Source: Lachnospiraceae bacterium (lineage in GTDB: Bacteria; Bacillota; Clostridia; Lachnospirales; Lachnospiraceae). Taken from it: 64,000 bases of DNA. Positions 9,817-22,086 of the stretch are shown here, one piece after another (within the stretch, counting starts at the first letter, position 1; every line of letters starts with the position of its first letter). The DNA is taken from NCBI GenBank assembly GCA_017936885.1, contig JAGBEO010000036.1, positions 62,001-126,000 of the forward strand, given 5' to 3'. A program made the translations under genes and the position numbers. The notes beneath the pieces were generated by a model. It did not search any database. It was not told the DNA's origin and saw only the letters and a program-made list of their open reading frames with translations.

Positions 9817-9900
9817 GTGCGAACAGGAGCTGAACAGGAGCACCCTGAAATGTCAGCAGCCAAATCCGAAAAAAATAATACCAAATCCGCAAAGAACTGA
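9817..9900 (+). CDS. possible 27-residue leader peptide
   Basis: GTG 9817 follows AAAGGAG (9804-9810) at good spacing and reads 27 codons to TGA 9898-9900: a polar Lys/Glu/Asn-rich peptide with no signal sequence. It lies just after the TTGACT/TATACC promoter and overlaps the proposed LytTR operator at 9860-9891. The matching operator at 15390 is not in an equivalent ORF and differs at second codon positions, so the conservation is more likely at DNA level. Weak call. Confidence 0.22.
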   Translation: MRTGAEQEHPEMSAAKSEKNNTKSAKN

Positions 9901-10054: not shown

Positions 10055-10249
10055 ATGATGAACCCTTGTGACAACAACAGACCCTGCCCGTGTACATATG
10101 ACTGCTCTCGTCATGGGAAATGCTGCGCCTGCGTAGCGCACCACCGTGACCACAATGAAGGGGTTCCCGGCTGCTTCTTTTCCAAAGAAGCGGAAGCGAC
10201 TTATGACAGGAGTATTGAAAACCTGGCAAGGGATTATGGTTTACTGTGA
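10055..10249 (+). CDS. small Cys-rich DUF6485-family protein
   Basis: 64 residues, start ATG 10055 (or 10058) with GGAGG at 10046-10050. It carries eight Cys, mostly near the N-terminus (PCPCTYDCSRHGKCCACVAHH) and a Cys/His pattern suggesting metal binding, then FSKEAEATYDRSIENL near the end. I recognise this as the DUF6485 family of small clostridial proteins; its function is unknown. It is the first gene after the putative LytTR promoter at 9860-9926 and is followed closely by the nucleotidase gene, so the two may be expressed together. No signal peptide or membrane segment. Confidence 0.8.
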   Translation: MMNPCDNNRPCPCTYDCSRHGKCCACVAHHRDHNEGVPGCFFSKEAEATYDRSIENLARDYGLL

Positions 10250-10283
10250 CGCAAAATTATATCAGAACGTTGAGGTAAAAAGA

Positions 10284-11966
10284 ATGAATTTTCGGTCTTT
10301 TAAACCGCAGTACCAGCGCCTTCCCGCCCTTATGTTTGCGGCTGTGGTATTGATAAGCGGTTGTGGAATTTCAAAGAGTACAATAGAAGCGCAAGACATT
10401 ATCATTTTATATACCAATGATGTACATTGTGCCGTGCGTGATGATATTGGTTACGCCGGACTTGCGGCTTATAAGGAATGGTGCGGGGAAAAGACGCCCT
10501 ATGTCACGCTGGTGGACTGCGGGGACGCCTTGCAGGGAGATGTGATCGGAACCATCTCTCAGGGGGAATATCCGGTAGAGATCATGAACCGTGTGGGATA
10601 TGATTATGCAGTGCTTGGCAATCATGAGTTTGACTATGGCATGGAACGGCTTTCCGAGTTGCTGGAACAAAGCAATGCAAAGTATCTTGGCTGCAATATC
10701 CGTTATACCGGAAGTGATCAGACTTTTCTTTCCCGGCTGGCGGCTTATGAGATTGTTACTTATGGCGATGTTAAGGTGGGATTGATCGGTGTGTCAACGC
10801 CGGAGAGCATCGTCAAATCCGTCCCGGCATACTTCTGCGATGAAAATGGAAACTATGTCTATGATTTTTGCGGGGAAAGCGGAGAGGAATTATATGAATG
10901 TGTGCAGGAAAATGTGGATGCCTGTATAGAGGAAGGCGCGGACTATGTGGTGGTTTTGGCGCACTTGGGAACAGATGAGGCTTCTTCGCCTTTTTCATCA
11001 GTTGATCTGATCGCGAATACGAATGGCATTGATGTGTTGTTGGACGGACATTCCCATAGCGTGATTTCCTGTGATGTGGTGAAGAATGCGGGCGGTGGGA
11101 ATGTACTTTTGTCTTCCACTGGCACAGGTCTTAATAATATCGGACGCCTTACCATCACCGCGGACGGCAATATACAGACAGGCCTGATCGGGGAGTATCC
11201 GGAGACGGACAGCGAAGTGTTAAGCTATATAGAAAGCATGGAAGAGGCATATGAATCCGAACTGGATCAAAGCATTGCTGTTACTGATGTACCGCTTACG
11301 ATAAGCTCTGATTCCGGTGTGCGGTTGATCAGAAACCGGGAAACCAATCTGGGAGATTTCTGTGCGGATGCCTACCGGGCTGTGTCAGGGGCGGAGATTG
11401 CCCTTGTAAATGGCGGCGGCATCCGGGCAGATCTGGAAGCCGGAGAGATTACCTATGGGGACATTCTTGGCGTACATCCCTATGGGAATACGCTCTGTGT
11501 TGCAAAAGCTACCGGACAGGAGATATGGGACGCTTTGGAGATGGCGAGTCGTCTGACCTTTTCGGATGTAAGTGACGGAGAGAATGCGATAGGCGAAAAT
11601 GGCGGGTTCCTGCAAGTGTCGGGCTTGCAATATACGATCGACACCAGTGTGGAATCTATGGTAGAAGTGGATGCACAGGGAAATTTCATATCTTGTGGAG
11701 ATAACCGACGGGTAAAGGATGTGATGGTCTTACAGGAAAACGGCAGCTACACAAATTTGGAGCCGGATAAGATTTATACAGTAGCCTCCCACAATTACCT
11801 GATCAAAGAAGGCGGGGATGGGTTGAATATGTTTATGGATAATGAACTGATCGTTGATGAAGGTATGCTGGATTATCAGATACTTATGACATATCTCACG
11901 GATCATCTTGGAGGTACGGTGGGAAGTGAATATGCCGGACCGCAGGGACGGATTACGGTTGAATAA
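10284..11966 (+). CDS. lipoprotein 5'-nucleotidase / metallophosphoesterase (UshA-like)
   Basis: About 560 residues. Start ATG 10284 is preferred over the longer frame because TGAGG lies at 10271-10275 and a lipobox follows (VLISGC, Cys27). The N-terminal calcineurin-like metallophosphatase domain shows all metal motifs: YTNDVHC, DCGDALQGD, LGNHEFDYG, VLAHLGTD and LDGHSHS. The C-terminal 5'-nucleotidase domain (about 300-560) has the substrate loop VNGGGIRADL and GDILGVHPYGN. The enzyme should hydrolyse extracellular nucleotides to nucleosides for uptake, anchored on the outer membrane face. It is convergent with the GHKL kinase gene 11 bases downstream and sits behind the putative LytTR promoter. 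Confidence 0.92.
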   Translation: MNFRSFKPQYQRLPALMFAAVVLISGCGISKSTIEAQDIIILYTNDVHCAVRDDIGYAGLAAYKEWCGEKTPYVTLVDCGDALQGDVIGTISQGEYPVEIMNRVGYDYAVLGNHEFDYGMERLSELLEQSNAKYLGCNIRYTGSDQTFLSRLAAYEIVTYGDVKVGLIGVSTPESIVKSVPAYFCDENGNYVYDFCGESGEELYECVQENVDACIEEGADYVVVLAHLGTDEASSPFSSVDLIANTNGIDVLLDGHSHSVISCDVVKNAGGGNVLLSSTGTGLNNIGRLTITADGNIQTGLIGEYPETDSEVLSYIESMEEAYESELDQSIAVTDVPLTISSDSGVRLIRNRETNLGDFCADAYRAVSGAEIALVNGGGIRADLEAGEITYGDILGVHPYGNTLCVAKATGQEIWDALEMASRLTFSDVSDGENAIGENGGFLQVSGLQYTIDTSVESMVEVDAQGNFISCGDNRRVKDVMVLQENGSYTNLEPDKIYTVASHNYLIKEGGDGLNMFMDNELIVDEGMLDYQILMTYLTDHLGGTVGSEYAGPQGRITVE

Positions 11967-11977
11967 GCAATAAGCTC

Positions 11978-13264
11978 TCACAGGGTAACCACAATTTTAA
12001 ACCAGCCCTCTTCAGCAGTAAAAGCATAAAAGGCATTATGTTTTTCACAGAAAGCCATAATGGAGCGTGTGCCGATTCCGTGACCGGTTTCCGGAGATTG
12101 CGGGAGCCCGTTTTTTCCAAAAGTGATCCGTCCCTTATAAGGATTTGCAATTTCAAACATGAATGTGGGTTTATGGATACATTTGACGATAATTTTTCTC
12201 TCATTCTTAGGGAGTTTTTCACAGGCTTTTATGGCATTTTCCAAAGCATTCGCAAAGCAGATGCTAAGCTCGGCGGAATCAACGGGGAGCGTTTGGGGAA
12301 AAGCAAGATGGAGTTCCACTGTAATACCGGAGTTTTTCGCCCGGTCAAGATAAGTGGTAAGCGTAGCATTTAAAATGGGATCGCTGCAGTAGCAGGCGGG
12401 AGCGGTTGCATTGTTCAGTGCAGAGGCTTCGGCTACAAATTGAAGGATGGCTTCGGCATTTCCCGCTTCTGCAAGCATGGCGATACCGGACAGCATGTGA
12501 TGGGTGTCCTGCCAGACCTTCCTGACTTCTTCCGCTTTTCTTTTTTCATCTTTGGCATGATTTTTTATGCTCTGTATCTGTAATTCCAGAATTTCCCGGT
12601 TCTGCTCCTCCATCCGGTATTGATACTGCGTCCATAGATTCTGAAAAATTGCATAGTAAATGATGAGGATGACGGCGCCTAATATGTAGAATATGAGGGG
12701 GAAGGACGGGTTTTGTGTATAATGCAGCGGATAGACTCCGACCACGAATGCAAGAAGAAAAAAGGAACAGGGGATCAAAGCGAGAATACCCCAGCCTTTC
12801 GTAATCGTTCCCGCAATCGTTAAGAAGATATTTCTCACAAAGAAAAATTCCAGCAAGATCATAATAAGATAGGCAAGCAGGAGCAATATGGCGTTTGACA
12901 GCAAAGTACCGCCCAAGAATGTATTGATCAATGTCAGACTGATGATCAGATAGAGTGAAAACAAAAGCTGCGACAGACTATTAAAGATATGTCTTGAGAG
13001 GGATGTATCCGAAATCACATAACTTATGATCACACCGGGTATGGAGATTGTAAACACAGCGCTTCGTAAAAAAGACAGGAATCCCAGAAAACGTATGGAA
13101 ACGAAAGTGACAACAATGGCATAAACAGCATATCCGCCCAAAATAAGCAGATTTCTCTTAGGGTTTCCCTTCATTGGGGTGGTGGTGGCAAACATGCCCA
13201 GCGTACAAAATATGGCGACAAGGATTCTGTAAGTCTGGTATGCTGTATTGTTATCAAAAATCAT
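11978..13264 (-). CDS. GHKL sensor kinase lacking the phospho-acceptor His (kinase A)
   Basis: 428 residues: about six N-terminal membrane helices (1-205), a coiled-coil-like linker (about 210-245), a dimerisation helix and a GHKL (HATPase_c_5) domain. In this family the phosphorylated His lies in an RHD motif; here the site reads VWQDTHHML, with Gln252 where His is expected. The paralogue next door reads IIRHDTRHML. The ATP-binding features look intact: N-box NALENAIKAC and glycine box GHGIG (394-398). It is third in the minus-strand operon regulator - kinase B - kinase A, 23 bases after kinase B, with AAGG before ATG 13264. Probably catalytically able but unable to carry the phosphate itself. 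Confidence 0.88.
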   Translation of the reverse strand: MIFDNNTAYQTYRILVAIFCTLGMFATTTPMKGNPKRNLLILGGYAVYAIVVTFVSIRFLGFLSFLRSAVFTISIPGVIISYVISDTSLSRHIFNSLSQLLFSLYLIISLTLINTFLGGTLLSNAILLLLAYLIMILLEFFFVRNIFLTIAGTITKGWGILALIPCSFFLLAFVVGVYPLHYTQNPSFPLIFYILGAVILIIYYAIFQNLWTQYQYRMEEQNREILELQIQSIKNHAKDEKRKAEEVRKVWQDTHHMLSGIAMLAEAGNAEAILQFVAEASALNNATAPACYCSDPILNATLTTYLDRAKNSGITVELHLAFPQTLPVDSAELSICFANALENAIKACEKLPKNERKIIVKCIHKPTFMFEIANPYKGRITFGKNGLPQSPETGHGIGTRSIMAFCEKHNAFYAFTAEEGWFKIVVTL

Positions 13265-13287
13265 AGTATCTGTCCTTCTTTCATTCC

Positions 13288-14580
13288 CTATAATGCAACC
13301 GTAACCTTAAACCAACCGTTTTCCGCCGTGAACGTATAAAAGGCATCATGCTTTTCACAGAATGCTATAATAGAACGGATGCCGATTTTGATGCTGCTTT
13401 CCGATGATTGCGGAAGATTGTTCCTGTCAAATGTAATCTTGCCTTTATATGGATTGGCAATCTCAAACATCAGCTTTGGTTTGTAAATACATTTGACAAT
13501 GATTTTTCTTTCCTCTTCCGGAAGCTTTTCGCAGCACTTTATGGCATTTCCCAGAGCGTTGGCAAAACAGATGGCAAGCTCGGCAGAATCGACAGGCAGG
13601 TGATCCGGAATAGAAAATGAGGTTTCAAGTGTAATGCCGGATTCTTCCGCAGATTTAAGATAACTGGAAAGCGTGGCATCCAGAAGGGGGTCATTGCAGT
13701 AATGGAGAGATTCCGGAAGATCAGGAATCTTAGCAGTGGTCTTTATAAAATCAAGTATTGCCTGCATGTCTTTGTTCTCCGCAAGGGCAGCAATCGTGGA
13801 AAGCATGTGGCGGGTGTCATGCCGGATGATCTTTGTCTGTTCTGTCAGATTTTCAATATTCGCAGTTTTTCTTTGTATGTTCTGAACCTGCCATTCCAAG
13901 ATTTCCCTGTTCTGTTCTGCTGAAAGCCTGTGATACTGTATGGACAGATAGAAGCCGATCGCAGAGTAAATAATGACAATGACAGCGCCAAGCAGATAAA
14001 TCATCACAATGCTTGCCGGTCTTTTGGCATAATGCTCCGGATAAAAAGCAATCGTTACAGCAAGAATGATAAATGCACAGGGAATCAGCGAAAGCGTCCC
14101 CCAGCCTTTTCTGATCGTGCTGATCAGATTCAGATAGATGCGCCGTACAAAGTAAAAATCAAACAGGATAATCAGCAGATAGATCAGCAGACGCAGTAAA
14201 ATATCCGACAGCTCTGTTCCATGCAGGGCGGTATTCAACAAAGTGACGGTGGCGGCGATATACAGGGAAATCAATATATGTGTTGCACGGGTGAATACAA
14301 GACGTGGGAATGGCTCGTCAGAAATATTATGCAGCAGAAAGACTGCAGGGCAGGATATGGTAAGGAGAAATACCCGCAGAAAATGCGCATAATCAAGGAA
14401 ATAAATGATAGCATAAGTAGAAAGTACAACATACAGGGAATAAATTCCAAAGATCACAATACTTACGAACTTTCTTTTGACGAATCTGAAATCTGTTGTG
14501 GAAATCATCATGCCTATCGTACCTGCGAAGGTGATCAGGACTTTCAGCACCAAAAAAATAATATTTTCTTCAAAAAGCAT
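13288..14580 (-). CDS. GHKL sensor kinase with RHD His but degenerate ATP-binding box (kinase B)
   Basis: About 430 residues, start at ATG 14580 with GGAGG at 14588-14592; an upstream in-frame ATG at 14595 is less likely. Six N-terminal membrane helices, a linker, then a GHKL-type region. The acceptor motif IIRHDTRHML is intact (His254). The nucleotide-binding part is not: where kinase A and the family have GHGIG, this protein has SIKIG (396-400), and the N-box reads NALGNAIKCC with Gly in place of the acidic residue. It overlaps the end of the response regulator gene by 11 bases, so translation is probably coupled. It is an obvious tandem paralogue of kinase A, with near-identical C-terminal stretches. 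Confidence 0.88.
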   Translation of the reverse strand: MLFEENIIFLVLKVLITFAGTIGMMISTTDFRFVKRKFVSIVIFGIYSLYVVLSTYAIIYFLDYAHFLRVFLLTISCPAVFLLHNISDEPFPRLVFTRATHILISLYIAATVTLLNTALHGTELSDILLRLLIYLLIILFDFYFVRRIYLNLISTIRKGWGTLSLIPCAFIILAVTIAFYPEHYAKRPASIVMIYLLGAVIVIIYSAIGFYLSIQYHRLSAEQNREILEWQVQNIQRKTANIENLTEQTKIIRHDTRHMLSTIAALAENKDMQAILDFIKTTAKIPDLPESLHYCNDPLLDATLSSYLKSAEESGITLETSFSIPDHLPVDSAELAICFANALGNAIKCCEKLPEEERKIIVKCIYKPKLMFEIANPYKGKITFDRNNLPQSSESSIKIGIRSIIAFCEKHDAFYTFTAENGWFKVTVAL

Positions 14581-15316
14581 GGTATCTGCCTCCATTCAGC
14601 CAAAAACTTGCCCATTCTTTTTTGACAGCTTCGTACATACGGCGGGGAACCGGGACATGCAGATTCCCGGTCAGGATCAGGTCTGATTTGGTAACTTCCG
14701 TAACATGGGATAAATTTACCACATAGGAGGAACCTACGAGGAGCATTCCTTTATGCGTCAGCAGGTCTGCCACGGCGTTTTGAAAAGAACTGTTGAATGT
14801 GATACTGGATATGACAGTATTATCTGTAAGGTAGTAATAAATCTGTTTCTCAATGCGTTCCGCATACCGTATGTCACAAACGGGAATCATGCGGATGCTG
14901 TCGGCAGTTTTCACGGAAACCACTTCCTGCATGATCTGGGAAAAAGAGCGGTAAGCCTTATCGAGACTTTGGAAAAACAGGTTTTGATCCACAGGCTTTA
15001 ACAGATAATCAAAAGCATCTACCCGGTAAGAGTTCAATGCAAAATCAGGGGATGTGGTAAGGTAGAGCAGAATACCTGCGTCGTCACGCTTGCGCAGGGC
15101 GCTCCCAAGTTCTATGCCGTTCATTTTCGGCATGATACAGTCCAGAATATAGAGGTCAAAGCCGCCGTATTCGTCAACATGGTTTAACAGCGCTTTGCCG
15201 GAGGTAAAAGAGGACAGGGAAAGGGAGCGGTCAGGATTGGTCTGCTTATATTGTCTGATAAGCTCTTTTATTGTTTCATGGTATGTTTTTTCATCATCAC
15301 ATAAGGCAATCTGCAA
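14570..15316 (-). CDS. LytTR-family response regulator
   Basis: 248 residues. N-terminal receiver domain with acidic pocket CDDE, phospho-acceptor Asp59 (LYILDCIMP), Thr in YLTTS and Lys in YLLKPVD. C-terminal LytTR DNA-binding domain (about 140-240) with the typical GSSYVVNLSHV strand and PVPRRMYEAVKKEW helix. The start is TTG 15316, with AAAAGGGG 8 bases upstream; a TATAAT-like -10 is on the minus strand at 15347-15342. First gene of an operon with two GHKL kinases. Two matching direct-repeat operators nearby (9860 and 15390) are good candidates for its targets. Confidence 0.93.
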   Translation of the reverse strand: MQIALCDDEKTYHETIKELIRQYKQTNPDRSLSLSSFTSGKALLNHVDEYGGFDLYILDCIMPKMNGIELGSALRKRDDAGILLYLTTSPDFALNSYRVDAFDYLLKPVDQNLFFQSLDKAYRSFSQIMQEVVSVKTADSIRMIPVCDIRYAERIEKQIYYYLTDNTVISSITFNSSFQNAVADLLTHKGMLLVGSSYVVNLSHVTEVTKSDLILTGNLHVPVPRRMYEAVKKEWASFWLNGGRYHAF

Positions 15317-15389
15317 GGCTGCTACCCCTTTTCAATAATTTATTATAGTGTAACAAAGAAGAATGCATGAGTCAACGAAACCGGATCAA

Positions 15390-15456
15390 CCAAATTCGCA
15401 CAAAAAAATACCAAATTCGCAATGAACCGTTTCAAAAGCTTGGATTCTGGTATATT
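15390..15456 (+). promoter_or_regulatory. putative LytTR operator-promoter for the giant surface protein
   Basis: Half-sites CCAAATTCGCA start at 15390 and 15411, 21 bases apart. A -10-like TATATT lies at 15451-15456, 40 bases after the second half-site starts, the same geometry as at 9860-9926. No clear -35 is present, as expected for an activator-dependent promoter. The site lies in the divergent region between the regulator gene and the surface-protein gene. Confidence 0.62.
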
Positions 15457-15516
15457 GCATCTGCAGAGGATCATTGAAAATAAAAGCAAAACAGAATGAA
15501 ATTGAAGGTAAACATT

Positions 15517-18500
15517 ATGGAGAAACGGATATCAAAAAAAGAACAGTATGAAAAACTGAGTGCAGCCTGCGAACCATTCAGAAAGGCGAAAACGGAAACG
15601 ATACATACAGTTGCGGGAATTGGGCGGAAACATAAATTGTTGCGTTATCCGGTCATGATAGCATTGGTGGTGTTTATTTTTATTTATAATGTGATCTTAT
15701 ACGGCTGCATCCAGCTAAAAGTCAGGGAGAAATTCGCAAAGAGTGTGGCACTTGTTATGACCATAGTCCTTGTGTTTACCGGTGTGGATCTCGCCGCATT
15801 TGCAACAACAGAAAATGCCGATGACGAAGCGCAGAACATAGGTGTGATCACAGCCTTTAGCGGACTGGACGAGTCAGTCGCAGAGCAGTCATTGCCTGTT
15901 GGAGCCGAGGAAAGTGAGATAAACTTTCCGGATACTCTTACGGTGACGCTGGAAACAGAGAGCGAGGAGGAACAGACAGAAGCGGAAGAAGGAACGGAGC
16001 CGGAAGAAGGAACGGAGCCGGAAGAAGAAACAGAGCCGGAAGAGGGAACAGAGCCGGAAGAGGGAACAGAACCGGAAGAGGGAACAGAACCGGAAGAAGA
16101 AACAGAACCGGAAGAGGGAACAGAGCCGGAAGAAGGAGCAGTGCCGGAAGAAGGAACAGAGCCGGAAGAGGGAACAGAACCGGAAGAAGGAACAGAGCCG
16201 GAAGAGGGAACAGAACCGGAAGAGGGAACAGAGCCGGAAGAAGGAGCAGTGCCGGAAGAAGGAACGGAGCCGGAAGAGGGAACAACACCGGAAGAAGGTA
16301 CAACTCCGGCGGAGGATACAACATCGGAAGAAAGCACAGAATCAGAAGAAAATACATCTGAGGAAAACAAAGAACAGACATCGGAAGAAAGTGCAGTATC
16401 TGCTGTTCTCGACTTTTTTCTGCCTGAGCCTATGGTAGTCTATGCGGCAGAACTTGACGAAACGGAAAATTCTATTGATGTGATAGAAATTTCCATTGGA
16501 GTAACATGGTGTTTAGATACAGCCGCAAGTACATCAGAGACCTTCGATTCTTCCGAAGCAGGGAGCAGGTATGTCTATGTGCCTGTCATTCCGGACGGAT
16601 ACACAGTAGCGGAGGGGGTCAGTCTTCCACAGATCATAGTCACAGTCATAGATAAGGAGCAGACAACTACACCGCAGATCATCGGATGGCAGTTCGGAGA
16701 AGAAGATGTTTATCCGGAAGGGGCGTTATTTTATGATGACGGAAGCTACAGTCTTGTATTGGCAGGGGGCGACAGTGAAGTACAAATTCCTTTTGAAGAA
16801 ATCTTATCCTGTTTACCGGAAAATGTGATCGTAAAATATGCAGATGAAGATATGGATGATGAGGTCCTGCCTATTTATGGATGGAACTGCCCGGAATATA
16901 TCACGGATGAGGAAGGAAATCTGCCTTACAGCGGAAGCTTTTTCTTTACGGCTCTGCTGACAGAGAACGAAGAAGAAGGGGCGTATGTCTTTTCCGAGGA
17001 TGTGGAGCCCATAGGCGTGTGGGTAATCTTTGATGTGCCAATGGCAGCTTCCGTAACCGCTGCACCCGGCACCATAACCTCCGATCAGGAATGGGAAGCG
17101 CAGACACTGTCCGCCGGTACTTATATCATCAATGAGGGGGTAACCGTGACGGTCTCGGGAAGACTTACGGTTAATGGAGAAGTCATGATCAAGGGAGGCG
17201 GAAAGCTTGTACGGTCCGACAGCTATGCGGGAGTAAGCGGTGCCGGTTCCAATAATGCCCTGCTGTATGTTACCGGGGGCAGTCTGACGCTTGAGAATAT
17301 TACCATAGACGGCAATTTTGTGGAGGCATATGGACCGGCTGTCTATATAAGCTCCGGAACCGTAACGATGAACAGCGGTGCGGTCATTCAGAATAACCAT
17401 AATATGAATACCAGCGGCGGTGCGGGTACTTATGCAGCGGGAGGCATCTATTGTGCCGGGACGTTAAATATAAACGGCGGGACCATTCAAAGTTGCAGGA
17501 CAAACGGAGAAATAGCGAGTAGTGCTTATGGTCATGCAGGCGGAGGCATCTATCTGAAGGGAATCTGTAATATGACCTCCGGCAGTATTAAGGACAATTA
17601 TGCTTCTAATGGCGGCGGAATATATCTTGCCTCAGGAGCAACGCTTGATTTGACCGGCGGCATAATTTCCGGTAATTCTGCAAATGGTAATGGAAACGGG
17701 ATTTATTATTCAACAGTAAATAATACAAACGGCATATTAAAGATCGGAGGGGATGTTAATATTTCAGATACTACCTATCTGGATATTACGACAGGAATAC
17801 TGTATCCTCTGATTACCTCCGAACTCCATTATAAACTGACGCTTGACTGCAGTACCTCAGAGGAAGGAAAGGTTTTGGCAGGAGGCAGCGGTTATACGCT
17901 TACTAGTGTGGATGCCAGCAAGATTTATTTGGAGAATTCAGGACTTTATTCCGTACTGGATAAAGAAAATAATCAGATTATTTTAAGCACCGTTGAGGAA
18001 GCGGAAGCAGCATGGCAGGAGACGTCGGGGGGAGAGTGGAAGACCGGTAAATTTACGACGGCGCTGGAGAATGTGTATTCTGGGGGAACGATCAAGCTGC
18101 TGAAGGATATCGTATTTACAGAAAAGGTGGAAATAACAAAAACTGTCACGATCACCAGTAATGATACCTCCAATCCGTGCACGATCACGAGAATGCCGTC
18201 CGGAACATATGGGAATATTACACTTACAGGAAGCGGTAATCTGACGCTGACCGGCATCATTTATGATGGAAACCGGGATTATGTCAGCGGCGGTGGGGAA
18301 TCCCAATCGCTGATCAAAGTTGGTGATACAGGTAATCAGGGAACGGTTTTGACATTGGGAAACGGCTGTATTATCCGTAACGGCTATAAATCCGGCGGTT
18401 CCGGCGTTATTGCGGTATATGGAACGATGGCAATGGAGTCCGGCGCGGTCATTGAAAACTGTGAGGTAACCGGTACCGGCGGCGCGGTCTGGGTCTCTTC

Positions 18501-21500
18501 CTCCGGCAGCTTTATCATGAATGGAGGAACGATTCAAAACTGTACAGCAGGGGACGGCGGTTCTGCTGTTTCTGTGGATGGAACGTGCTTACTGAATGGC
18601 GGCAGTATTACAGGAAATACGGATACATCCGATAAGCCATGTGCCGTCTATCTGCGGTCAAGCGGAAGCGGCAGCCTGACCTTAAACGGTGTAGCCATTT
18701 CCGGCAATACATACAGTGTCTATAATGAGGGAAAGAACGTGACGATTACAGGGGATTCCGCGCTTTTGGGCAGTATTTATACAACAAATGCAGTTACGGC
18801 AAGCGGAACCGGTGTGAGTGGTCTGACGAAAACCTATACCATTACGATGAGTTCCGTCACAAATGGAACGATAGTGGTTACAGGCAGTACGGATAGTACC
18901 CATTATCAGCTTGATTCCTCTGAGTATGTGCTGGCAGCTAATGGAACGAACCTTTGGGCAGCAAAAAAATATACAGTTACCTATGATTACAGCATGAATG
19001 GCGGCACTTGTGCCACAAAAACTTCCGATATGTTTGGGGCAGGTAATAAGGTAGACTTAACACCGACAGCCACAAAAGACGGCTGGGAATTTGTGGGCTG
19101 GAATACGGATAAGGATGCCAAAACGGGTCTTGATTCCCTGACAATGGGAACGGAGGACATGACATTATACGCAGTCTATAAGAAGACGCTGACGCTCACC
19201 TGCTATTCCGGCAGTGCGGGAGATAAGCAGACAGGAACAGTAACGATTTATAACAATGATACGAAAGGTTCCATAAAAGTACCGGCTGCAAAAGCGTGGA
19301 GCGTATCGGATGAAAATTATTGGTTCTATAGTTATGTACTGGGTCCGGATAAATTCGAGGGAACGTTATATGGTGGCAACAGTACGATTTCCTTGTCGGA
19401 AGACACCAGTCTTTATGCATGGTATAGAAAAACAATCACGATTTCCTATGAAGCCAATGAGGGAAGCGGAAGCGTGGCAGATAAAAAAATCTACCGGAGC
19501 GCGAATGTGTCAGATATCGTTACCTATAAGGAAGCTTCTGCTACGCTGCCGGAGGGCACAGGCTTTACACGTGCCGGGTACACCTTTAACGGCTGGATAG
19601 AAGGAAGCAGTACAGGAACTGTTATAGCGGCAGGGACTTCGGTGACACCCACAGCAGATACCACCTATTACGCAAGCTGGACGCCGAATACTTATTTGGT
19701 TGAACTGCATTTAAATGGAGGAAGCGGGGGGACGAGCCTGACTTCCTACACCTATGGGACAGGTGCGGCACTTCCGATGGACTGGACAAAAACAGGTTAC
19801 ACGTTTGGAGGCTGGTATGACAATGCGGACTGTACAGGAACAGCGGTAACGGGTATTTCCGCTGCGGATACAGGAAATAAGGAATACTGGGCGGAATGGA
19901 TAGACGATATTGCTCCTGTAATCGGTACGCTTTCCTACAGCTATGAGCCGAAAAACCTGTGGCAATGGCTGATTGGAAGGGAAAGCTTGATTATCACGGT
20001 GCCTGTGACAGAGGAGGGCAGCGGGGCAGATGAAATTACCTATACCGTGATACCGGAGGGGAGCACAGCAAGTACGGACACATCGGAGATTAAGGACGGT
20101 GTGGCAGAGATTACTGTTTCAGCAGATTTTGAGGGAACGATTGTCCTGACATGCACCGATAAGGAGGGCAATACCTCATCATGTGTGACGGTTGGAACAG
20201 CCATGAACGGAATTATTATTGAGGACAATGCACCGGAGATTACTTTTAAAGCGGACAATAGTCAGGTATTGGCAAGCGAATATGAAGCAGCTCCTGAAAT
20301 TATCGTGACGGTAACGGATGATGAGAACAATGCCATTTCTGCCGGTCTTGCTTCCGTGACATATCAGATCGGGGACGATGCGGTAACCGAAGTACAGCAG
20401 GATTTCGTGTCAAGCATGAAAAACCAGGTCAGCTTTACCATAGCAGCGGCACAGATTCCGGCTGGCGAGACGGAAATTATCGTGAAAGCCACAGACAATG
20501 CTGGAAATTCATCGGAAAAGAAGTTGACCGTGAAAGTACATATCCACAGTGGAAACCTTGTGACTGCAAAGGCAGCGACCTGTACGGAGGACGGACATAG
20601 TGCCTATTATATCTGCAACTGCGGCAGGTGGTTTTCGGACAGCGGCTGTACAAATGAAGTGACGGCGCAGGAAGTGGCAATCCCGGCAGCCGGGCATACG
20701 GAAGTGACGGATGAAGCGAAAGCGGCGACCTGTACCAAAACGGGATTGACGGAGGGCAGCCATTGCTCCGTGTGCGGAACCATAATCGTGAAGCAGGAAA
20801 CAACAGCGGAACTAGGACATGATTACAGCGGAAGCTATCTGTATGATGCAGAGGGACATTGGAAAGTATGCAGCCGATGCGGTGTGGAGGATACAAAACA
20901 CAACCATATCTATGACAATGACAGGGATGCTGTATGTAATGACTGCGGCTACGAAAGGGCAGTAAAGAATCCGGATACAGACGAAGACGAACCTGAGACA
21001 CCAAAGCCGGCGGGCCCATCGGAGCCGTCAAGTCCGGCGGATTCATCGGGAACGCTGCAGCCGTCCGATCCGACAGATTCATCGGAAACGCCGCAGCCCG
21101 CCGATCCGACAGATACACCGGAAACACCGCAGCCAACCAATCTGCCGGAGGATACACCGGAAACACTGCAGCCAATCAATCTGCCGAAGGACAAAACAGC
21201 AACGACACCGGGTACACGGAATAACAGGCAGCCGGAGGATGATAAAGAACCGGAAGGTACAGAAGCAACGGTGCAGAATACAGAGGAATCTTCCGGTACG
21301 GAGAAAGTGCAGCTGCCGGAGGAAGAAGGTGTACAGACCATACCGGCATCAACAGATAACGGTAAGATAACCATATCGGGTGAATCGGTGGCAACGGGCA
21401 ATGTGGATGGGATGACAAGCACACGCACGGCTCTGAATCTGGGAGGTGGGGCGGTCATCATAACGGTTGTCTGTGAGGAGCAGGAGTATACGGCAGGAAT

Positions 21501-22086
21501 AGCAGATACGGTGGCAGTGGCAAACGCAGTTCTGACAGCGGAGCAGATACAGCTCGTGTCGGACGGAGAAACCATAGAAATACGGATAGATGTGACGGAT
21601 ATTTCCGATAAAGTAACGCCGCAGGATCGGGAAATCATTGAGGGCGGTATCAAAGCATACCAAAATGAACTGCCCACGCTGATGCTCGGAATGTATGTTG
21701 ACATCTCCATGTTCATCAAGATCGGAGCGGGAGATTGGAATGCCGTTACCAATACGCAGGAGCTCATAGAGGTGGTCATCAGTATTCCTGAGAAACTGCA
21801 GAGTGATGGCAGAGACTATTACATTATCCGATCCCATGAAGGGGAATGTACCCTCTTGACGGATATGGATGACGATCCGGATACCATAACCGTCAGTACG
21901 GATATGTTCTCCGCCTATGCGATCGCATACGAAGAGGCAGATGGAGCGGAGGTAAGTGTAAAATGTGGCTTGTGCCATATCTGCCCGACATTTCTCGGTA
22001 TATGTTATTTTATCTGGCTGGCGATCATCATTGCAGCATTTTTGATCATCTGGATTGTCATTCGGAGAAAAAGAGTGGTAACGTAA
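15517..22086 (+). CDS. giant multidomain surface protein (~2190 residues)
   Basis: Start at ATG 15517, with GAAGG at 15504-15508; an ATG at 15496 is also possible. Two hydrophobic segments near the N-terminus (about 45-65 and 77-97, ending DLAAFA) look like a leader with an extra membrane helix. Then: E/P/T/G hexapeptide repeats (about 154-267); an unrecognised region (268-520); a Gly/Asn-rich right-handed beta-helix, pectate-lyase-like (about 530-1150; GGGIYL and SGGTV-type turns); three or four InlB-type (Flg_new, Listeria-Bacteroides) repeats ending in GWNTD/GWYDN/AEW (about 1150-1465); Ig-like beta domains (1465-1670); a CxxC-rich region (1674-1817); a Pro/Thr-rich spacer (1818-1942); and a C-terminal domain followed by one membrane helix and RRKR. 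There is no LPxTG. Probably membrane-anchored and exposed, perhaps adhesive. Confidence 0.88.
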   Translation: MEKRISKKEQYEKLSAACEPFRKAKTETIHTVAGIGRKHKLLRYPVMIALVVFIFIYNVILYGCIQLKVREKFAKSVALVMTIVLVFTGVDLAAFATTENADDEAQNIGVITAFSGLDESVAEQSLPVGAEESEINFPDTLTVTLETESEEEQTEAEEGTEPEEGTEPEEETEPEEGTEPEEGTEPEEGTEPEEETEPEEGTEPEEGAVPEEGTEPEEGTEPEEGTEPEEGTEPEEGTEPEEGAVPEEGTEPEEGTTPEEGTTPAEDTTSEESTESEENTSEENKEQTSEESAVSAVLDFFLPEPMVVYAAELDETENSIDVIEISIGVTWCLDTAASTSETFDSSEAGSRYVYVPVIPDGYTVAEGVSLPQIIVTVIDKEQTTTPQIIGWQFGEEDVYPEGALFYDDGSYSLVLAGGDSEVQIPFEEILSCLPENVIVKYADEDMDDEVLPIYGWNCPEYITDEEGNLPYSGSFFFTALLTENEEEGAYVFSEDVEPIGVWVIFDVPMAASVTAAPGTITSDQEWEAQTLSAGTYIINEGVTVTVSGRLTVNGEVMIKGGGKLVRSDSYAGVSGAGSNNALLYVTGGSLTLENITIDGNFVEAYGPAVYISSGTVTMNSGAVIQNNHNMNTSGGAGTYAAGGIYCAGTLNINGGTIQSCRTNGEIASSAYGHAGGGIYLKGICNMTSGSIKDNYASNGGGIYLASGATLDLTGGIISGNSANGNGNGIYYSTVNNTNGILKIGGDVNISDTTYLDITTGILYPLITSELHYKLTLDCSTSEEGKVLAGGSGYTLTSVDASKIYLENSGLYSVLDKENNQIILSTVEEAEAAWQETSGGEWKTGKFTTALENVYSGGTIKLLKDIVFTEKVEITKTVTITSNDTSNPCTITRMPSGTYGNITLTGSGNLTLTGIIYDGNRDYVSGGGESQSLIKVGDTGNQGTVLTLGNGCIIRNGYKSGGSGVIAVYGTMAMESGAVIENCEVTGTGGAVWVSSSGSFIMNGGTIQNCTAGDGGSAVSVDGTCLLNGGSITGNTDTSDKPCAVYLRSSGSGSLTLNGVAISGNTYSVYNEGKNVTITGDSALLGSIYTTNAVTASGTGVSGLTKTYTITMSSVTNGTIVVTGSTDSTHYQLDSSEYVLAANGTNLWAAKKYTVTYDYSMNGGTCATKTSDMFGAGNKVDLTPTATKDGWEFVGWNTDKDAKTGLDSLTMGTEDMTLYAVYKKTLTLTCYSGSAGDKQTGTVTIYNNDTKGSIKVPAAKAWSVSDENYWFYSYVLGPDKFEGTLYGGNSTISLSEDTSLYAWYRKTITISYEANEGSGSVADKKIYRSANVSDIVTYKEASATLPEGTGFTRAGYTFNGWIEGSSTGTVIAAGTSVTPTADTTYYASWTPNTYLVELHLNGGSGGTSLTSYTYGTGAALPMDWTKTGYTFGGWYDNADCTGTAVTGISAADTGNKEYWAEWIDDIAPVIGTLSYSYEPKNLWQWLIGRESLIITVPVTEEGSGADEITYTVIPEGSTASTDTSEIKDGVAEITVSADFEGTIVLTCTDKEGNTSSCVTVGTAMNGIIIEDNAPEITFKADNSQVLASEYEAAPEIIVTVTDDENNAISAGLASVTYQIGDDAVTEVQQDFVSSMKNQVSFTIAAAQIPAGETEIIVKATDNAGNSSEKKLTVKVHIHSGNLVTAKAATCTEDGHSAYYICNCGRWFSDSGCTNEVTAQEVAIPAAGHTEVTDEAKAATCTKTGLTEGSHCSVCGTIIVKQETTAELGHDYSGSYLYDAEGHWKVCSRCGVEDTKHNHIYDNDRDAVCNDCGYERAVKNPDTDEDEPETPKPAGPSEPSSPADSSGTLQPSDPTDSSETPQPADPTDTPETPQPTNLPEDTPETLQPINLPKDKTATTPGTRNNRQPEDDKEPEGTEATVQNTEESSGTEKVQLPEEEGVQTIPASTDNGKITISGESVATGNVDGMTSTRTALNLGGGAVIITVVCEEQEYTAGIADTVAVANAVLTAEQIQLVSDGETIEIRIDVTDISDKVTPQDREIIEGGIKAYQNELPTLMLGMYVDISMFIKIGAGDWNAVTNTQELIEVVISIPEKLQSDGRDYYIIRSHEGECTLLTDMDDDPDTITVSTDMFSAYAIAYEEADGAEVSVKCGLCHICPTFLGICYFIWLAIIIAAFLIIWIVIRRKRVVT
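15976..16315 (+). repeat. 18-bp tandem repeat encoding EPEEGT hexapeptides
   Basis: About 19 in-frame 18-base units inside the giant surface-protein gene, encoding mainly TEPEEG with variants TEPEEE, AVPEEG and TTPEEG. The AVPEEG variant occurs twice exactly 108 bases apart (GGAGCAG at 16135 and 16243), showing that a block of six units was duplicated. Strand bias is strong: the + strand is purine-rich. Repeat number is likely to vary between strains. Confidence 0.9.

Follow-up and report, generated by a model that had tools for sequence, protein, structure and literature searches.

A pair of adjacent receptor kinase genes in a Lachnospiraceae bacterium carries complementary losses: kinase A lacks the phospho-acceptor histidine, and kinase B has a damaged ATP-binding box. 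The pair lies in a stretch of 64,000 nucleotides of contig JAGBEO010000036.1 (hereafter the window; coordinates are window positions unless another locus is named), together with a gene for a LytTR response regulator. We consider it probable, at roughly three chances in four, that A and B together make up a single split kinase of the AgrC type, a heterodimer in which each is one subunit, with phosphate passing from A to His259 of B and on to Asp59 of the regulator. Several features of the sequences bear on this proposal: the residues themselves, the gene order, the conservation of both losses in an orthologous locus (L030), purifying selection on both genes, the sister relation of A and B, and the recurrence of complementary pairs in other lineages. 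The last of these is the strongest evidence for a split kinase.

Two adjacent kinases with complementary losses

The three genes lie on the minus strand in the order regulator, kinase B, kinase A (Table 1). The regulator and kinase B genes overlap, and 23 bases separate the stop codon of B from the start of A. The trio appears to be an operon of two tandem AgrC-like kinases and one LytTR regulator, as in the FasBCA layout. In the regulator, Asp59 was located as the phospho-acceptor and Lys107 as the conserved lysine. The two kinases are 49% identical to each other. An earlier reading of the window, made from its letters alone (the sequence-only reading), had placed the kinase genes at 11978–13264 and 13288–14580, downstream of a gene for a LytTR regulator. 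Both open reading frames (ORFs) are present there, to which we add the strand, and the regulator gene is indeed the first of the trio. Kinase B has 435 amino acids when counted from the ATG at 14595, or 430 from an in-frame ATG at 14580; residue numbers are given for the gene start stated.

The acceptor region of A reads KVWQDTHHML, with Trp preceding Gln252, and the dimerization and histidine phosphotransfer (DHp) domain of B reads IIRHDTRHML. The N-boxes read NALENAI in A and NALGNAI in B. Every one of these residues, like the intact GHGIG of A and the SIKIG of B, is as the sequence-only reading had listed it. Its statement that B has lost the glycine box held only in part: Gly403 is replaced by Lys and the box is changed, but Gly405 is kept, so that GHGIG is not lost as a whole. 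Since A lacks the acceptor His, it is not a canonical AgrC-type kinase alone, despite a match to Pfam HATPase_c_5 of 51.1 bits, above the curated cut-off of 22. Likewise, because B lacks Gly403, the acceptor His and an intact GxG motif do not occur together in B, and it is not a canonical AgrC-type kinase alone.

We rejected the possibility of a shifted acceptor in A. The His at +4 falls in the column of the second His of RHDxRH, where 198 of 237 related ORFs have His, and the extra His at +3 stands where B has Arg; the alignment offers no other conserved His as an acceptor. Phosphorylation of A at +3 or +4 therefore seems unlikely.

AlphaFold models of A and B, built from 5 alignment rows, have mean predicted local distance difference test (pLDDT) scores of 56.8 and 56.7, and the catalytic domain alone is usable (pLDDT near 80 in A, lower in the rest). 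In a fold comparison, this low-confidence model of A matched the AgrC cytoplasmic domain (6e52) best, and the ATP-binding domain of AgrC (4bxi) ranked 15th. A search of solved structures by sequence gave no profile match at E ≤ 0.01, and A yielded chance-level matches only (best E 0.41).

Table 1. Features of the kinase locus in the window.
Feature	Position	Strand	Description and basis
Response regulator, REC and LytTR DNA-binding domains	14570..15316	-	248 amino acids, TTG start; Pfam Response_reg 7.4e-15, LytTR 2.6e-08
Kinase B, proposed acceptor subunit	13288..14595 (stop included)	-	An uncertain number of membrane helices (from a low-confidence model); RHD kept in the DHp; HATPase_c_5 degenerate
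Acceptor His259 of B (His254 from ATG 14580)	13819..13821	-	Codon CAT; alignment with 237 kinase-like ORFs
Degenerate G-box SIKIG of B	13381..13395	-	Gly403 to Lys, Gly405 kept; alignment; SLKIG in L030
N-box NALGN of B	13546..13560	-	E-to-G, window-specific; NALEN in L030
Kinase A, proposed catalytic subunit	11978..13264	-	428 amino acids; HATPase_c_5 intact and acceptor His absent from the DHp; an uncertain number of membrane helices
Gln252 at the acceptor position of A	12509..12511	-	Codon CAG; sequence
Intact G-box GHGIG of A	12071..12085	-	Residues 394-398; sequence
Probable LytTR operator	15389..15421	.	Two copies of ACCAAATTCGCA whose starts are 21 bases apart, between the regulator gene and the divergent gene at 15496 and upstream of both

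The altered residues are rare and conserved in an orthologous trio

Residue frequencies were counted on common alignment columns in 237 distinct related kinase-like ORFs (one trimmed copy was removed from 238), using an alignment that leaves out one gapped row. That row had made L152/L227 and L153/L228 appear to lack a G-box, an artefact that we discarded, as the sequences carry GHGLG or GHGMG. The acceptor column holds His in 226 ORFs, Asp in 3, Gln in 2 and Glu in 2, with 4 gaps; the two Gln belong to A and its L030 orthologue. Column 403 holds Gly in 218, Ser in 7, Lys in 2, Asp in 1 and His in 1, with 8 gaps, and here Lys is confined to B and its L030 orthologue. Gly405 is conserved in 226 of the 237. 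The first Gly of GHGIG is poorly conserved (132 of 237), and for that reason G403K is the telling change in B. At the N-box position of E349, Gly is found only in B of the window. The sequence-only reading had counted this N-box change among the losses of B; we have dropped it from the signature of a split kinase, because it is private to B of the window and the L030 orthologue has Glu.

A scan of named genome contigs found one orthologous trio, L030, on JAUNIU010000002.1 from the metagenome-assembled genome Eubacteriales bacterium S29M_St_14. Identity to L030 is 93% for the regulator, 86% for B and 82% for A. The A orthologue reads VWQDTHHML and GHGIG, and the B orthologue reads RHDTRHIL, NALENAI and SLKIG. 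Hence, the search among relatives that the sequence-only reading had proposed recovers the tandem pair with both the Gln of A and the lost Gly of B in place at 82–86% identity. An orthologue with RHD and GHGIG in both kinases, which would suggest decay in one strain, was not seen, the single orthologous pair having kept both losses. Conservation of single residues between two genomes is, by itself, weak evidence. Between the window and L030, synonymous divergence (dS) is 0.31–0.47, and the ratio of nonsynonymous to synonymous divergence (dN/dS) is 0.11 for the regulator, 0.17 for B and 0.19 for A. Both kinase genes are thus under purifying selection, and neither appears to be decaying.

A search of 77 genomes of the genus found the pair in the window's own genome and in no other. 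Two others, G039 and G020, have one kinase each, 43 and 42% identical to A, with canonical RHD and GHGIG, and the adjoining regulators are 52 and 58% identical. In a third, G029, two canonical kinases stand in tandem, at 28–29% identity.

Complementary pairs recur in other lineages

We surveyed 397 genomes of the family, 392 of the order and 338 of the phylum (presumably Bacillota, judged from L030 and from L031, the latter of the Lachnospiraceae), 378 genomes of the family with a second profile, a set that overlaps the first, and, in two small sets at the genus level, 4 and 10 genomes. In the large sets the best 4–5 candidates per genome were scored, and all counts cover the regions that were fetched, which are a part of the places listed. 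Together with a slice of the window, 296 loci yielded 332 kinase-like ORFs, 238 of them distinct. In 207 of these, both the acceptor His and GxG are present; 20 keep the His but lack GxG or a catalytic domain (one of which is the trimmed copy), 8 have GxG but no His, and 3 were set aside (the fragments L208 and L096, and L097, whose DHp domain is not alignable).

Each of the eight acceptor-less kinases has, within 400 bases on its own strand, an ORF that retains the acceptor His and whose catalytic domain is damaged or absent. Such a neighbour is found beside none of the 207 normal kinases, and the same holds for the subset of 186 whose flanks span at least 900 bases on either side (8/8 versus 0/186; Fisher p 2e-14, ignoring kinship between the sequences). 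The pairs of the window, L030 and L026 were known beforehand and formed part of the first profile. Without them, all five remaining acceptor-less kinases (L099, L246, L249, L263 and L288, from four lineages) keep the pattern. None of the 14 pattern matches in viral contigs encodes a relative, and plasmid records gave two weak matches to the catalytic partner of L297.

The other pairs differ in how far the acceptor partner is eroded. In L026, the regulator is followed by a kinase with His replaced by Asp and with GHGLG, and then by an RHD kinase from which the G-box is deleted. The regulator of L099 is followed by a kinase with the same His-to-Asp change and GIG, and then by an RHD protein of 314 amino acids that ends after the DHp domain. 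Two genomes of one genus of another family (L246/L297 and L249/L298) encode a membrane protein of 307 or 300 amino acids with a DHp domain, and the stop codon of its gene overlaps the beginning of the next one, which encodes a kinase with GHGIG or GHGLG and with Glu in the acceptor position. In another genus of that family (L263/L299), a kinase with Asp at the acceptor position and GHGIG is followed by a protein of 107 amino acids. This small protein (L299 7292–7615, genome G1113) has a hydrophobic N-terminus and a DHp motif, RHDLRHH, and its gene overlaps that of the acceptor-less GHKL kinase; it lacks a catalytic domain, gives no match to Pfam at E ≤ 0.01, and is possibly a minimal acceptor subunit. 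Finally, in L288/L300 the regulator is followed by an RHD kinase with a DSVG box and by a kinase that lacks the RHD helix. HATPase_c_5 is present in all four other catalytic partners tested (L297, L299, L026 and L300) and, at E ≤ 0.01, in none of four acceptor partners (L297, L299, L026 and L099); the acceptor partners of L297 and L026 match SPOB_a below its cut-off. Across the pairs, erosion runs from point mutations in the window through loss of the G-box and loss of the whole catalytic domain to the 107-residue protein, an endpoint that seems to comprise little beyond a hydrophobic anchor and the DHp domain.

A quick tree of 115 rows, which has long branches and omits the 107-residue L263 partner as too short, groups A and B as sisters in a clade of the window and L030, with a Shimodaira–Hasegawa-like approximate likelihood ratio test (SH-aLRT) value of 97. 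A wider clade (100) includes four single canonical kinases. The partners are also sisters in L026 (94), L099 (85) and L246 with L249 (94). The L288 partners fall with different kinases (97 and 100); hence, that pair was assembled or diverged differently. The acceptor-less kinase of L263 groups with a canonical kinase of the same genome. When only the B rows serve for comparison, the acceptor-less state calls for at least five changes on branches with good support, and the number of origins is approximate because the tree is quick and its branches are long. This suggests that the pairs arose separately, in about six lineages. We think it fairly likely that a homodimeric kinase of the peptide-receptor type has split repeatedly within this phylum into an obligate catalytic/acceptor heterodimer, with some five to six origins, with partners that are sisters in four of six lineages, as tandem duplication and then complementary loss would leave them, and with graded erosion, and that the pairs would form a distinct class of sensor with two receptors and one regulator.

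A proposed mechanism and its alternatives

We propose that an ordinary homodimeric kinase was duplicated in tandem and that each copy then lost a different function. A would supply the working ATP-binding catalytic domain and would phosphorylate His259 in the DHp domain of B in trans, and B would hand the phosphate to Asp59 of the LytTR regulator. Heterodimerization, the absence of kinase activity in B and the route of the phosphate are what we infer. The sequence-only reading had suggested just such a catalytic/acceptor pair, and it gains support from the complementary arrangement in about five other lineages and from the FasB/FasC heterodimer (PMC12675982).

As an improbable alternative, B could be a functional homodimeric kinase that still binds ATP with its altered lid, and A a regulatory pseudo-acceptor that tunes B, for example through less active heterodimers. 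A number of observations favour this alternative or otherwise weigh against a split kinase. B keeps Gly405, the N-box asparagines and a HATPase_c_5 match of 40.3 bits, again above the cut-off. Moreover, the altered catalytic domain is still constrained, and is in fact the most constrained part of B (dN/dS 0.09 against L030); hence, B may retain ATP binding or weak activity. Of the 20 ORFs that keep the acceptor His but have lost GxG or the catalytic domain, 8 are the partners of acceptor-less kinases and 9 stand without such a partner; the nine include L096, whose gene is interrupted by a stop, and L290, where the match contains two stops. Four of the nine have Ser at Gly403 (L109, L207, L225 and L287), so that loss of Gly403 alone is no proof of a split kinase. 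The remaining three rows, one of them a duplicate, belong to the L103 tandem (genome G182; 104–1570 and 1652–2965), which lies behind a LytTR regulator and has RHD in both kinases and altered G-boxes in both (GNSTG and KGIW). Furthermore, only one pair orthologous to that of the window was found, and in L246, L249 and L263 the regulator adjoins the pair on the other strand (divergently in L263/L299). On the other side, Lys at Gly403 is restricted to B and its orthologue, the His-bearing partners in L099, L246, L249 and L263/L299 are without any catalytic domain, and the fully intact catalytic domain of A (dN/dS 0.13) is hard to explain if A is a mere inhibitor.

It is less probable still that the main role of A is to dephosphorylate or negatively regulate the LytTR regulator, comparable to the action of RetS on GacS. 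Inhibitory kinase heterodimers do exist (PMC12189002), and the DHp domain is the least constrained region of A (dN/dS 0.31). However, this explanation leaves the damaged catalytic domain of the His-bearing ORF beside each of the eight acceptor-less kinases unaccounted for, and if B were dead and A inhibitory, the locus would encode nothing that could phosphorylate the regulator. Ordinary decay, in which one or both genes are degenerating duplicates, would fit the rarity of the pair in the genus and the private N-box change of B, but we rejected it as highly improbable, given that both genes are open and under purifying selection, that both losses are kept in L030 at a dS of about 0.4–0.5 and that the same split recurs in other lineages.

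Other tandem arrangements were also observed. In L015, L057 and L072, both sites are intact in both kinases, and in L072 the regulator lies in between. The four kinases with RHD and with Ser for the first Gly of GxG are located at L109 2997–4301, L207 2995–4308, L225 2944–4248 and L287 1501–2856, with no acceptor-less partner nearby; either Ser is tolerated at this position or the partner is encoded elsewhere. An RHD kinase of 365 amino acids at L135 2938–4032 (G112:C33) ends directly after the N-box and adjoins a LytTR regulator, with no acceptor-less neighbour.

Comparison with known systems

The FasBCA system of group A Streptococcus includes a ComE-like regulator, FasA, which we take to be of the LytTR type. 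Among known systems, FasBCA is the closest to the window trio: its operon likewise encodes a pair of kinase-like membrane proteins and a single ComE-like regulator. In FasBCA, FasB is the catalytic protein and FasC the acceptor; His246 of FasC is needed and the FasC catalytic domain is dispensable; in two-hybrid assays FasB binds FasC and neither binds itself, and a C-terminally truncated FasB fails to complement (PMC12675982). FasC has been proposed to be a pseudokinase, and H241 or H284 was considered as FasB's own site, although H241A still complements (PMC12675982). By the published numbers, H241 and H284 of the 448-residue FasB lie 207 and 164 residues from the C-terminus, outside the range of 169–205 in 170 canonical kinases of our set, whereas His246 of the 427-residue FasC lies inside it, at 181. 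Thus, FasB may be without a canonical acceptor. The residues of the window pair fit one catalytic and one acceptor partner as in FasBCA, with B keeping part of its box. The window differs in that both losses are visible as substitutions and in that the regulator comes first in the gene order.

Catalytic and acceptor functions are also divided between CheA3 and CheA4 of Rhodobacter sphaeroides, neither of which autophosphorylates alone (PMC3591291). That chemotaxis kinase is split by domain loss, whereas the window pair consists of two near full-length membrane receptors, each with an N-terminal membrane domain. CheA belongs to a different kinase class from the GHKL receptor kinases.

AgrC resembles A and B in fold (6e52, 4bxi), and its functional sites His239 and Gly394/Gly396 (PMC6755735) correspond to the two altered sites; in AgrC both sites are in one protein, which forms a dimer of itself (PMC6755735, PMC12930874, PMC3841183). 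A review reports that H239Q disrupts AgrC autophosphorylation (PMC12930874). This is the same substitution as that at the acceptor site of A. Engineered acceptor-dead and ATP-dead mutants of AgrC reportedly complement each other in trans, in work attributed to George Cisar in 2009, and the window pair would mirror these mutants.

What is the significance of such pairs? The usual assumption is that histidine kinases are homodimers; by itself, each gene described here would pass for a normal kinase or a dead one. Should the pairs prove to be obligate heterodimers, they would be natural trans-complementing receptors in which the role of each subunit is separable, and they would display the transition from homodimer to heterodimer in graded natural steps. 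More pairs could be found by a simple sequence rule: an acceptor-less GHKL kinase adjoining one with a broken catalytic domain. Two sensor domains on one phosphate path could integrate two signals, and in theory split kinases can give ultrasensitive or bistable responses (PMC3591291). In the best matches of a literature search that covered few subscription journals, FasB/FasC was the only AgrC-like split pair recognised, and repeated, graded evolution of such pairs was not described. The proposed split kinase would be a variant of the FasBC type; its repeated, graded evolution is the new part.

Operator candidate and neighbouring genes

A direct repeat lies upstream of the regulator gene (Table 1). 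Its 21-base-spaced pattern has one match, versus none expected in 100 shuffles. Repeats of LytTR sites are usually 21 bases apart, and because the spacing agrees, we regard the repeat as a probable operator. A mismatch scan located an equivalent repeat upstream of the L030 regulator (L030 4160–4192, 2 mismatches), a counterpart that a repeat search with exact seeds did not report.

The divergent gene at 15496–22086 encodes a probable surface protein of 2196 amino acids, which contains Listeria-Bacteroides repeats as well as a long repeat of the EEGTEPEE type and has a hydrophobic segment at its C-terminus. This gene is not beside the trio in L030; hence, the regulated targets may differ between the two loci. 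A weaker copy of the repeat, with 4 mismatches, is found at 9859–9891 upstream of a 5ʹ-nucleotidase gene (10146–11966), and may mark a second target of the regulator.

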